A stretch of 64,000 nt of DNA from Actinomycetota bacterium (GTDB lineage Bacteria > Actinomycetota > UBA4738 > HRBIN12). Of the stretch, positions 13,375-16,809 are shown piece after piece. The notes beneath the pieces were generated by a model, which did not search any database, was not told the DNA's origin, and worked only from the letters and a program-made list of their open reading frames with translations. Numbering within the stretch: the first letter of the stretch is position 1; each line of letters begins with the position of its first letter. The position numbers and the translations under genes are program-made. The stretch spans positions 1 to 64,000 of the forward strand of contig DASSCU010000015.1 of NCBI GenBank assembly GCA_035697485.1. Reading direction: 5' to 3'.

Positions 13375-14211
13375 TCAGTCCTCGTCGTCGCCACCCTGCG
13401 CCAGCTCGAGCGAGCGTTGGCGCGCGGCGTCGATCGCGTTCAGGAACGCGGCCCGAACACCGGCTTCCTCGAGGTGACGGATCGCCGCGATCGTCGTCCC
13501 GCCGGGCGACGTCACCATCTCGCGCAGCTCCACGGGGTGCGTGCCCGTGTCGCGGAGCATCTTCGCCGAGCCCAGCATCGTCTGGATGATGAGTTCGGTC
13601 GCGACGTCGCGCGACAGCCCGAGCAGGATACAGGCCTCGATCATCGCCTCGGCCAACAGGAAGAAGTAGGCAGGGCCGCTGCCGCTCGTCGCCGTGACGG
13701 CGTCGAGGTGCTGCTCGGGCAGCCGCAACACCTTGCCCACCGTGCCGAGCAGCTCCTCGGCGATCGCGAGGTGGGCTTCGTCCGCCGAGCGTCCCGCCGA
13801 GATCACCGACATCGCTTCGTCGACCATCACCGGCACGTTCGACATCACACGCACCACCGGCACCCCGTCGGGCAGCTGCTTCTGCACGAACGACGTGCGG
13901 ACGCCGGCGGCGAAGCTGATCACCGTGTCGCGGGGCCGGACGTGCTCTCGGATCTGCTGCAGCAGCACCTCGATGTCCTGGGGCTTCGTCATCAGCACGA
14001 GTACGTCGGCCCAGCGCACCGCCTCGGCGTTGTCGAGGGTCGCCGTGATGCCGTACTTGCCCGCGAGCTCCTGGGCGCGCTCCTCACGGCGGTTCGTCAC
14101 CATGATCTCGTCGACCGTGCGCCCGCCCGACCGGATCAGGCCGGAGATCAGCGCCTCGGCCATCTTGCCGCCGCCGAGGAACGCGACCCTGCGTGCACCG
14201 TCGCTGCTCAT
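13375..14211 (-). CDS. proC: pyrroline-5-carboxylate reductase
   Basis: A 278-residue enzyme reducing P5C to L-proline with NAD(P)H. The Rossmann motif VAFLGGGKMAEALISGL starts at about residue 9, and the C-terminal signature TSPGGTTIAAIRHLEEAGVRAA is complete. ATG 14211 was chosen over the GTG three codons earlier because a TAGGTT -10-like box (14219-14224) lies exactly 7 nt upstream, which would make a leaderless transcript. The small basic gene follows. P5C is shared with the P5C dehydrogenase encoded 1.2 kb away. Confidence 0.93.
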   Translation of the reverse strand: MSSDGARRVAFLGGGKMAEALISGLIRSGGRTVDEIMVTNRREERAQELAGKYGITATLDNAEAVRWADVLVLMTKPQDIEVLLQQIREHVRPRDTVISFAAGVRTSFVQKQLPDGVPVVRVMSNVPVMVDEAMSVISAGRSADEAHLAIAEELLGTVGKVLRLPEQHLDAVTATSGSGPAYFFLLAEAMIEACILLGLSRDVATELIIQTMLGSAKMLRDTGTHPVELREMVTSPGGTTIAAIRHLEEAGVRAAFLNAIDAARQRSLELAQGGDDED

Positions 14212-14247
14212 GGGGCACAACCTACCGCACGCGCCGAGACCGAAGCC

Positions 14248-14907
14248 TCACGCCTCGTCCGGCGCGGCCTGGATGCCGTGACGCAGGATCTCGACGAACT
14301 CCTTGATGCGCATCTCGCGCCGTTCCGGCCGCCTGTGGATCAGCCCGGGGTCGAGATCGGCCGAGACCAACGCATCCTGGAACCGCTCGGCGACCCAATC
14401 GAGGGTCGACGCGAGCATCTCGGGATCGACGTCGTCGCGGACCTCGCCGCTGCGCACGCCGAACTCCACGAACTCGAGCGTGCCGTACGGATCCTCGCTG
14501 CGCATGAAGCGGTCGATCGGACGTCGGACGCCCATCCCGGCGTCGTAGCGGCCGATCACCGCGATGCGGTTGGGCACCGGGTCCTGCTCCACGAAGTCCT
14601 CCGTGTGCTCGAGCCACCAGTCGAGCGTCGCCCAGAACCCCTCGGCCGTGACCTCCTCGGGAGCGTCGAGCCACGCGGGCAACATCGAGACCGCGCGCTG
14701 ATAGGCCGCCAGGAAGAGACCCTCCTTCGAGCCGAAGTCGAGGAAGACGGTGCCCTTGGCCACCCCGACGTCGGCCGCGATGTCCTCGACGCGCCCTCCA
14801 CGGTAGCCGTGCTCCGCGAAGTGACGCATCGCGGCATCGACGATGCGGTCGCGGCGCTCGGCGGCGTCGCCTCGCTTGGTCCGACCCTCGCTCACCTCCG
14901 ACGTCAT
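14248..14907 (-). CDS. TetR family transcriptional regulator
   Basis: A 219-residue protein. Residues about 15-60 form the TetR helix-turn-helix (RDRIVDAAMRHFAEHGYRGG, then EDIAADVGVAKGTVFLDFGSKEGLF), with a helical ligand-binding domain behind. ATG 14907 is preceded by TACCGT (14914-14919) with a 6-nt gap, suggesting leaderless transcription. No adjacent divergent target gene is obvious: the neighbour upstream is the candidate RNA gene and downstream is proC. The ligand is unknown. Confidence 0.87.
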   Translation of the reverse strand: MTSEVSEGRTKRGDAAERRDRIVDAAMRHFAEHGYRGGRVEDIAADVGVAKGTVFLDFGSKEGLFLAAYQRAVSMLPAWLDAPEEVTAEGFWATLDWWLEHTEDFVEQDPVPNRIAVIGRYDAGMGVRRPIDRFMRSEDPYGTLEFVEFGVRSGEVRDDVDPEMLASTLDWVAERFQDALVSADLDPGLIHRRPERREMRIKEFVEILRHGIQAAPDEA

Positions 14908-14936: not shown

Positions 14937-15013
14937 AGGAAAGAATGAGCCCGAGAGACCTTCCGGCTCGCCGAGAACCGAAGCTCCCAGCCACCGTCAG
15001 CCTCTCGGGCTCA
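14937..15013 (-). terminator. long-stem terminator-like structure ending the candidate RNA
   Basis: A perfect 12-bp inverted repeat (14946-14957 with 15002-15013, TGAGCCCGAGAG / CTCTCGGGCTCA) encloses 44 nt. On the minus strand it is followed at once by a T-rich tract (TTCTTTCCTC, 14945-14936). It lies 4 nt after the closing stem of the candidate RNA and before the tetR promoter, as expected for a transcript end. The loop is long for a simple intrinsic terminator. Confidence 0.5.
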
Positions 15014-15374
15014 GGTGCTCCAAGCAACCTCCGCCTCGTCGCGGCGGTGACCGGTCGGCCCGGCGGGTTCGGCTCGCCCGAAGGCGCTCCGATCGCCTGC
15101 CGCCCGCCGGCTCGCCTTGCGGCGCTCCCGCGGCGGCGGGGCTCCCCTGCGACCCACCCGAAGGTGTGCCGCCGGGGGCCGGACCCGGCTTCGTCCTTGC
15201 GGCGTCTGCCTGGCCCGGGAGGCTCCGCTTCCGGCCTCGCGGCCTTCGTCGGCTCCCCGGAGTCCCGCGTCTGGCCTTGCGGCCTTCGTCGGTTCTCCCG
15301 GTTCCGTCTCCGCCTTTCGGCGGCTCCGGAACCTCGTCCGGTCTCCTCGCGTCGATGCTTCGACTGCTTGGAGC
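14937..15374 (-). ncRNA. candidate structured non-coding RNA, about 0.44 kb, nine regularly spaced hairpins
   Basis: Transcription would start near 15374. The 10 nt at 15374-15365 pair perfectly with 15026-15017 (GCTCCAAGCA / TGCTTGGAGC), closing a domain of about 358 nt. Inside are nine hairpins, in RNA order 15364-15351, 15323-15310, 15284-15273, 15244-15233, 15204-15193 (imperfect), 15166-15155, 15124-15113, 15086-15075 and 15047-15031; centre spacing is 38-42 nt. Read on this strand the loops are AGCA, GAAA, GCAA, GCGA, GCAA, UUCG, GCAA, UUCG and a 7-nt loop. Both UUCG loops have the classic C-G closing pair. Hairpins 7 and 8 have symmetric AG/AG internal loops, and ACGAA/AGACG internal-loop strands recur in hairpins 3 and 5. 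No frame persists because 40 is not a multiple of 3. I saw no RNase P (GGAAAGUCCG, ACAGAAA) or tmRNA hallmark. Ms1/6S-like RNA remains possible. Confidence 0.62.
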
Positions 15375-15381
15375 GAGGCGA

Positions 15382-15410
15382 ACTGTACGGTCGGGACCAG
15401 GCACGGTCAA
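15382..15410 (-). promoter_or_regulatory. SigA-type promoter of the candidate RNA
   Basis: Minus-strand TTGACC (15405-15410), a 17-nt spacer, then TACAGT (15382-15387). Seven nt after the -10 box lies G15374, the first base of the closing stem. It has the same architecture as the promoter at 386-414. The remaining stretch up to the mshA stop (15411-15522) is less GC-rich and holds no gene I can support. Confidence 0.62.
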
Positions 15411-15522
15411 CTCGGCGTTTCCGCAGGTCAGAGCATGAATGCGCTGGTAGCAGGCACAGCAAGTAGAGTGACAAATCCCAACGGACGGTGACGAACGCTC
15501 CAGCGGACGATGAACGCGCAGG

Positions 15523-16767
15523 TCAGCGACGGTGTGCGAGCACCTCGTCGTACACCGACACCACCTGATCGGTCGTCGCATCCCAGGTGAATCGCAGCGC
15601 CTGCCGGGCCGCCTCGTCGCCGAACGTCGACTGGAGCCGAGGGTCCCGAAGGATCTCCAGCAGCCGGTCGGCGTGGTCGCCCGGGTCGTGCCCCTCGACG
15701 AGGAAGCCGCTCCGGCCGTCCTCGACGACGTACGGCAATCCGCCGACGTCGGCGGCGACCACGGGGGTGCCACAGGCTTGCGCCTCGAGGGCAACCAGGC
15801 CGAACGACTCCGACCGCGAGGGCACGAGCACCACGTCGGCGGCGGTGTAGAAGTCGACGAGCTTGGACTGCGGCTGCGGCGGGAACAGCATCACGCGCTC
15901 GCTCACGCCGAGCGCCGCGGCGAGCTCGAGCAGCCTCGCGACCTCGGCCCCCTTGTCCGGGCCGCTCGGCCCGCCCACGATCGCGAGGACGAGGTCGCCG
16001 GCGGCCTCGGGATCGCGGGCGACGGCCTCGGCGAGTGTGCGCACGGCGACGTCGGGGCCCTTGTGGGGCTGCAAGCGGCCGACGTACAGGGCGAGACGGA
16101 GCCCCGACAGATGCAGGCGCTCCCGAGCGCGGGCACGGTCGCCGGGCACGAACAGCAGATGATCGACGCCCGGCGGCACGAGCCGCACGCTGCCCGGGTC
16201 GGCTCGGTACAGGCCGACGAGCTGCGCGGCCTCGGTCGGCGTCGGGGCGAGCACGCGATCGGCCTCGTCGATCACGGCCTGCTCCGCCGCGAGCCGCACC
16301 GCGGGCTCGGGAGGCTCCCCGCGGGCCAGCGAGTAGTTCTTGACCTTGCCGAGGGTGTGGAACGACGCGACGAGCGGCGCGCCGAGCGACGATTTGACCG
16401 CCCGCCCGACCCAGCCGGAGAGCCAGTAGTGGCTATGCACGATGTCGTAGCCGCGGCCGTCCTCGTGGGCCACGCGCAGCACCCCGCCGAGGAACTCGGG
16501 CAGGTACCGGGGAAGCTCCCCCTTCGGCAGCACCTCGCAGGGTCCCGCCTTCACGCTCACCACGCGGATACCGGGGCCGAGGATCTTCACCTCGTGGTCA
16601 TCGCCCCCGCGGCATCTCGTGAAGAGGTCGACGGCCACGCCTCGGCTCGCGAGCCGTTCGGCCACCGCGCGCACGTAGACGTTCATGCCGCCGGAATCAC
16701 CGGTTCCCGGTTGGTCCATGGGCGATGTGTGCACGCTGAGGACGGCGACGCGGGCGTTGTCGTTCAT
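15523..16767 (-). CDS. mshA: D-inositol-3-phosphate glycosyltransferase MshA (mycothiol biosynthesis)
   Basis: A 414-residue GT-B, family-4 glycosyltransferase. N-terminal features are VAVLSVHTSPMDQPGTGDSGGMNVYV and IVHSHYWLSGWVG; C-terminal features are YVGRLQPHKGPDVAV and the E-x7-E region SESFGLVALEAQACGTPVV. MshA joins N-acetylglucosamine from UDP-GlcNAc to inositol-3-phosphate, the first committed step of mycothiol synthesis. ATG 16767 is preceded by TACCAT (16775-16780) with a 7-nt gap, suggesting leaderless transcription; a GTG lies one codon earlier. Other family-4 transferases look similar, but the GDSGGMNVYV pattern favours MshA. Confidence 0.85.
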   Translation of the reverse strand: MNDNARVAVLSVHTSPMDQPGTGDSGGMNVYVRAVAERLASRGVAVDLFTRCRGGDDHEVKILGPGIRVVSVKAGPCEVLPKGELPRYLPEFLGGVLRVAHEDGRGYDIVHSHYWLSGWVGRAVKSSLGAPLVASFHTLGKVKNYSLARGEPPEPAVRLAAEQAVIDEADRVLAPTPTEAAQLVGLYRADPGSVRLVPPGVDHLLFVPGDRARARERLHLSGLRLALYVGRLQPHKGPDVAVRTLAEAVARDPEAAGDLVLAIVGGPSGPDKGAEVARLLELAAALGVSERVMLFPPQPQSKLVDFYTAADVVLVPSRSESFGLVALEAQACGTPVVAADVGGLPYVVEDGRSGFLVEGHDPGDHADRLLEILRDPRLQSTFGDEAARQALRFTWDATTDQVVSVYDEVLAHRR

Positions 16768-16809
16768 CACGCCGATGGTATGCGAGGTCGCCGCGAACGA
16801 GGAGCGAGA

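Follow-up and report, generated by a model that had tools for sequence, protein, structure and literature searches.

What is encoded on the minus strand between mshA and a tetR-family gene in the 64-kb stretch of DNA analysed here (the window), whose host is an uncultured soil-type actinobacterium, and does it belong to any known class of RNA? A preliminary description had placed at this location a promoter-driven structured RNA gene. The setting between the two genes was recovered with TIGR03449 and PF00440 matches, and the promoter is present as described, i.e., TTGACC (15410–15405), 17 nt, TACAGT (15387–15382) and a further 7 nt to the stem base at 15374. Transcription from this predicted promoter is inferred, in the absence of expression data. 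The locus comprises the following features, in which the locus counts refer to promoter-bearing loci of the same class:

13375–14220, minus strand: proC, the next gene downstream of tetR (TIGR00112, 282 bits)
14248–14907, minus strand: tetR-family regulator, downstream neighbour (PF00440)
14938–15381, minus strand: predicted RNA gene in its array form, about 435–445 nt (from sequence, fold, homologues and loops)
15382–15387, minus strand: −10 hexamer TACAGT, after a 17-nt spacer (spacer of 16–18 nt in 20/20 loci)
15405–15410, minus strand: −35 hexamer TTGACC (from sequence; TTGAC present in 20/20 loci)
15421–15450, minus strand: two ACCTGC-like repeats (CTACCAGCGC and TGACCTGCGG) in the interval between upstream element and promoter (ACCTG/ACCAG repeats in 19/20 loci)
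15463–15475, minus strand: upstream element TTTGTCACTCTAC, beginning about 62 nt upstream of the −35 hexamer (class form TTGTCACTCTTT)
15523–16770, minus strand: mshA, conserved upstream neighbour (TIGR03449, 487 bits, above cut-off)

Folding of the minus strand over 491 nt gave a minimum free energy of −296 kcal/mol (z = −6.4), and none of 100 shuffled sequences was as stable. The predicted elements, from the 5′ end of the RNA to its 3′ end, are:

15362–15374, minus strand: 5′ strand of the closing stem, 13 bp (fold; this stem also covaries in core-form RNAs, described below)
15351–15364, minus strand: alternative local hairpin with an AGCA loop (fold; competes with a long-range inner stem)
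15300–15333, minus strand: arm 1, GAAA loop (predicted fold)
15259–15298, minus strand: arm 2, GCAA loop and ACGAA/AGACG internal loop (predicted fold)
15219–15258, minus strand: arm 3, GCGA loop (predicted fold)
15179–15218, minus strand: arm 4, GCAA loop (predicted fold)
15144–15177, minus strand: arm 5, UUCG loop (predicted fold)
15099–15137, minus strand: arm 6, GCAA loop (predicted fold)
15062–15097, minus strand: arm 7, UUCG loop (predicted fold)
15031–15047, minus strand: alternative local hairpin with a 7-nt loop (fold)
15017–15029, minus strand: 3′ strand of the closing stem, GGTTGCTTGGAGC (fold)
14946–15013, minus strand: 3′ hairpin with a UUCG loop and a conserved basal stem GAGCCCGAG/CTCGGGCTC (match to covariance model R1 at 14943–15029, E 3e-17)
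14938–14945, minus strand: U-rich, terminator-like tail TTCTTTCC (sequence; in many relatives the hairpin is likewise followed by T-rich stretches)

The perfect 10-bp stem of the preliminary description, formed by GCTCCAAGCA (15374–15365) and TGCTTGGAGC (15026–15017), is borne out and lengthens to 13 bp with two G-U pairs included. As to the nine hairpins that had been proposed between its strands, seven arms are certain, with a mean pair probability of 0.93–1.00 and loop centres (15317, 15279, 15239, 15199, 15161, 15119 and 15081) spaced 38–42 nt apart, whereas the AGCA and 7-nt-loop hairpins yield to the long-range inner stem in the best fold. The stem noticed just past the closing stem corresponds to the 3′ hairpin (15013–14946), which carries the third UUCG loop of the RNA on a basal stem of 15 bp and is followed by the U-rich tail. 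Each of the eight loops in the predicted fold is either GNRA or UUCG, for an expectation of 0.57 (dinucleotide shuffles, maximum 2 in 40), as against none of the 11 loops on the opposite strand, in agreement with the strand specificity that had been claimed. Loop identity is the strongest single sign for the window RNA, and GNRA/UUCG loops are enriched in seven other array-form loci too. The very high G+C content and the many inverted repeats could also be read as a cluster of palindromic repeats acting at the DNA level, with no RNA function. However, such a reading hardly seems tenable in view of the strand-specific loop identity and of the compensatory changes that keep pairs, and similarities elsewhere in the genome are only weak and short.

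No family of Rfam 15 was matched at curated thresholds anywhere in the whole 64-kb window, the RNA included. A permissive scan gave at best mir-584 (22 bits versus a cut-off of 80), which, like SMAD5-AS1, was dismissed as a chance match, and 6S RNA (RF00013) remained without a match even at permissive thresholds. The core-form and small-RNA relatives presented below were also compared with Rfam, which returned nothing except a 16S rRNA fragment beside one distant relative. The preliminary description had recognised no RNase P, tmRNA or SRP hallmark, and rightly so: the genome's RNase P RNA, tmRNA and SRP RNA lie above cut-off on other contigs (C43, C53 and C5), on which ground each of them was rejected as the identity of the window RNA. 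A dispersed-repeat origin of the arms was rejected as well, with merely weak and short matches elsewhere in the genome, and literature searches found no description of this RNA.

Conserved ends of the RNA were found by blastn in ten genomes of the window's family. Ten rows, one of them the window itself, went into a covariance model (R1) for the 3′ hairpin, so that the window's own match is partly by construction; note that E-values from models built in this analysis are rough. With R1, the large RNA was found in 21 of the 27 genomes of the class (E 6e-8 or better), and a model of the core (R2) added a 22nd genome (G018). The class genomes without the large RNA are mostly incomplete assemblies. 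The RNA-bearing relatives are metagenome assemblies which, judging by their isolate names, come from soils, sediments and groundwater. The promoter, the upstream element and both RNA ends are conserved in 20 class loci, with a −10 resembling TAnnnT in 18 of them and the ACCTG/ACCAG repeats located ~18–20 and ~38–40 nt upstream of the −35 in 19. The distance of 62 nt from the element to the −35 is kept in most loci of family f1, and across the class an TTGTCACTC-like element usually lies 62–75 nt upstream of the −35. In addition, mshA is found upstream in nearly all class genomes with a readable flank (the exception being G017, in which it does not occur within 1.5 kb), as well as upstream of the RNA in families f13 and f45.

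The downstream side is far more variable, since tetR is present in only a part of family f1 and is elsewhere replaced by proC without tetR or by other genes, and therefore the RNA does not serve one particular downstream gene as its leader. In the window, 38 nt separate the end of the 3′ hairpin from the start codon of tetR, which lies on the same strand; this would suit cis action on tetR, or on read-through from mshA, as a leader or attenuator. Such a role is nevertheless highly improbable, as several relatives keep the RNA without a downstream tetR and as the RNA's own promoter and regulatory sites are conserved. Altogether, the segment at 14938–15381 almost certainly encodes a structured non-coding RNA from a gene of its own, a claim of the preliminary description that receives support from homologues in which the promoter recurs at the same spacing, from conserved ends and covariation, and from the lack of an Rfam match. 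Its ‘housekeeping’ reading agrees with the class-wide distribution, while ‘abundant’ is still an inference because there are no expression data for any member.

Most members of this family are RNAs of ~280 nt with a strongly conserved core of ~200 nt, for which one long irregular rod with internal loops and one side hairpin is predicted. Covariation in homologues, the absence of which would have argued against an RNA gene according to the preliminary description, was observed: among 12 core sequences, 96.7% of cells were paired and 26 pairs (69 cells) showed double changes, when none of 500 shuffles scored as high and slid controls reached only 32–51% paired. With more divergent rows added, double changes were observed in 25 of the 58 core pairs. 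The core secondary structure remains a prediction, in which pseudoknots may be missed. Full core homologues extend to another three families of Actinomycetota (f13, f45 and f73), and the core recurs at the same mshA locus in f13 and f45, the two families with checkable flanks. Note that one core-form RNA (G333, L090:1501-2069) lies at a contig end, where the aberrant 3′ end of a 16S rRNA precedes it by ~100 nt; this reflects either an assembly chimera or a placement in an rRNA operon. A second core copy ends another contig (L096).

The window genome (G000) and six others (G004, G007, G008, G012, G014 and G016) carry the array form, in which the promoter, the closing stem and the 3′ hairpin are retained and GNRA/UUCG arms stand in place of the core. 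Since R2 has no match at E <= 1 in the whole of G000, membership of the window in the RNA family rests on locus, promoter and ends; it is recognised by the R1 score of its 3′ hairpin, the spacing of promoter and element, and mshA upstream. Phylogenies were built from mshA, TetR and proC, RpoB being missing from too many class assemblies. The array-form genomes group in one clade in the TetR tree (support 100/99), and one core-to-array change suffices in the mshA tree (support 89/93), with the core in the outgroups. Because the array genomes form one clade with core-bearing outgroups, these sequence comparisons make it very likely that the array derives from the core, which was probably replaced once in the window's clade, the support of the mshA tree for a single replacement being moderate (89/93). 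An array-like form in G017 (family f2) may represent a second replacement event. Within the array itself, three near-identical RNAs displayed 2 double and 7 single pair-preserving changes, with 8 of 160 pairs broken. This covariation is consistent with the structure but weak, and it is limited to three close sequences because the arms cannot be aligned between genera.

The regular arms of similar build, whose number varies between species, recall the row of hairpins, also variable in number, of CsrB/RsmZ, and each repeated arm could accordingly be imagined to bind one copy of a regulatory protein, as in a sponge RNA. We consider this improbable: the loops are GNRA and UUCG, typical of stabilising or docking elements, with none of the repeated GGA loop motif of CsrB/RsmZ, and the orthologous, ancestral core form has no hairpin row, so that arrays cannot be the ancestral function. 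Even less probable is an RNA-only homo-oligomeric scaffold, despite a size, compactness and number of arms, together with an unknown function, that the window RNA has in common with the ornate RNAs GOLLD, ROOL and OLE, which are likewise large and elaborately folded. Indeed, stable GNRA and UUCG tetraloops are poor candidates for loop-loop kissing, Rfam searches revealed no GOLLD or ROOL homology, and the window RNA is smaller than these non-homologous RNAs and differs from them by its stabilising tetraloops. GOLLD- and ROOL-like RNAs were found by cryo-EM to form homo-oligomers (PMC12286853).

A divergent Ms1/6S-type RNA, which would bind RNA polymerase (core or holoenzyme) and adjust transcription as growth slows, had been put forward as the main known alternative. 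Ms1 of Mycobacterium and Streptomyces is similarly an RNA of Actinomycetota with ~300 nt or more (~280 nt for the core form here), its own sigma-70-type promoter and a wide occurrence in its lineages, just as the present RNA is near-universal in the class, and it combines weak sequence conservation with a conserved structure. Its fold is a long double-stranded hairpin with a central bubble and two short terminal hairpins (PMC4191392), to which the predicted rod of the core form is broadly alike. In contrast, the window form is a seven-armed multiloop and not a rod with a bubble, the core is strongly conserved elsewhere in the family, and the neighbours are mshA/GNAT and tetR/proC, whereas the Ms1 RNA gene adjoins HAD-IB hydrolase and oxidoreductase genes (PMC9130861); the best HAD-IB match in G000 lies on contig C58 and not on the window's C15. 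We noticed a 540-nt gap beside the HAD-IB gene of that genome. As for 6S RNA (RF00013), it too is long, closed and structured, has a separate promoter and occurs in more than one copy in several species, but the window RNA has no match to it even at permissive thresholds, no Rfam match at all, no open-promoter bubble and an extra conserved 3′ hairpin. Missing similarity does not exclude Ms1, because Ms1 is weakly conserved in sequence. All in all, Ms1 as the main alternative is unsupported by the gene neighbourhood or by the predicted fold of the window member, and a 6S/Ms1-type identity appears unlikely, while an Ms1-like role for the core form, which rests on a predicted rod, stays open. Ms1 is the nearest functional analogue, although there are no data on polymerase binding by the window RNA.

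Weaker matches of R1, about one per genome, led to a small RNA of ~100 nt, preceded by a TTGACA-type promoter of its own, whose related hairpin (CCNAGAGGCUGAGUAGAGAACGC..GGCCCCAAAGGUCUCUUGG, with GAGUAGAGAACGC/CCAAAGGUC) is highly conserved and for which no Rfam match was obtained. A model of this small RNA (R3) has matches in 51 of 397 sampled Actinomycetota genomes, including 25 of the 27 of the class as well as members of families f5, f13, f18, f35, f50 and f52, with many genomes of f18; the G000 copy lies at C20:40317-40423 (L064:1317-1424). In f18 (L137, L138 and L140), a conserved TACCCCCCACCCTATTGACA promoter region and a longer closed 5′ domain lie ahead of the small RNA, unlike in the class form. 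A third RNA, of ~230 nt, is also marked by the 12-mer TTGTCACTCTTT. It repeats the promoter layout and has a closing stem GGUCCCGAGCGGCCG/GGUUGCUCGGGGCC and a 3′ hairpin of GAGUAGACAACG type, the apical loop of which, UAUGGGGAAGG, is conserved. This RNA is recognisable in 25 of the 27 class genomes (L150, L143, L144, L146 and others), in some of them as just a short hairpin stretch, and its 5′ domain is much reduced in the G000 copy (C33:32205-32306, L214). The exact 12-mer occurs only 0–3 times per genome, for no occurrence of a reversed-pattern control, and the window copy departs from it in its last bases. As the sister RNAs share the hairpin layout and this rare promoter element is common to them in many genomes, the window RNA very probably belongs to a co-regulated family of several RNAs. 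Two array-form genomes (G016:C86, L088; G014:C87, L089) additionally contain a fourth RNA, a diverged core copy with its own TTGTCACTCTTT, which in G014 is near a tRNA-like 3′ end. This core copy had suggested that core and array were reciprocally swapped between sister RNAs in G014 and G016, a reading that was rejected because the third RNA occupies a separate locus in both.

The best overall explanation, which we hold to be likely without regarding it as settled, is that the window RNA, in its derived array form, belongs to an RNA family of Actinomycetota that has not been described before, and that it works in trans within an RNA-protein particle. The layout of this family would be fixed: a promoter of sigma-70 type, under regulation, comes first; a stem of CCGAGC/GCUCGG type closes the 5′ domain; and the 3′ hairpin, itself conserved, may double as terminator. 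The strong promoter would drive the large RNA together with two smaller, co-regulated RNAs of similar build, through a common regulator whose action at TTGTCACTCTTT is inferred, and the closed, tetraloop-capped structure would stabilise the RNA, its stability also being inferred. The RNA would then act in trans inside a putative RNA-protein particle, in which closing stem and 3′ hairpin may constitute the docking site for a partner protein common to the sister RNAs, the 5′ domain serving as a replaceable scaffold or effector module. Docking is placed in these two elements because the inner domain is replaceable and the ends are not, and it is inferred from which parts are conserved because no protein partner has been identified; a trans-acting particle docking through its ends is therefore a proposal that could prove either right or wrong. 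More tentatively still, the family may amount to a so far undescribed superfamily of RNAs, present in early-branching and uncultured Actinomycetota with three or more co-regulated members in each genome, which forms a modular RNA-protein system whose large member can exchange its ancient conserved core for a wheel of tetraloop-capped arms and yet keep promoter, closing stem and 3′ hairpin.

To our knowledge, large structured bacterial RNAs beyond the known housekeeping set are few, and their roles are mostly unknown. The present family is new to Rfam 15, near-universal in the class and extends to three other Actinomycetota families, and its large RNA is joined by sisters to give at least three RNAs per genome with a common hairpin layout. 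The wholesale replacement of the core in one clade amounts to a natural domain-swap experiment, in which the common function should reside in the parts that both forms have (promoter, closing stem and 3′ hairpin) and not in the parts that differ; since the swap separates the former from the latter, function becomes directly testable. In these lineages, the family may fill the place in which 6S or Ms1 would be expected and, if the superfamily reading is true, global regulatory or scaffold RNAs would gain a new class that has no relation to 6S, Ms1 and the known ornate RNAs.

As a minor observation on the promoter element, a reversed form (AAAGAGTGACAA) precedes a promoter and a hairpin leader of ~45 nt at L148 (G000:C5:80762), L151, L154 and L156. 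The gene that follows encodes a repeat protein (MKKRVVRAGEFE...), and in two of these loci the next one, as judged by eye, encodes a thioredoxin-like protein resembling MauD.
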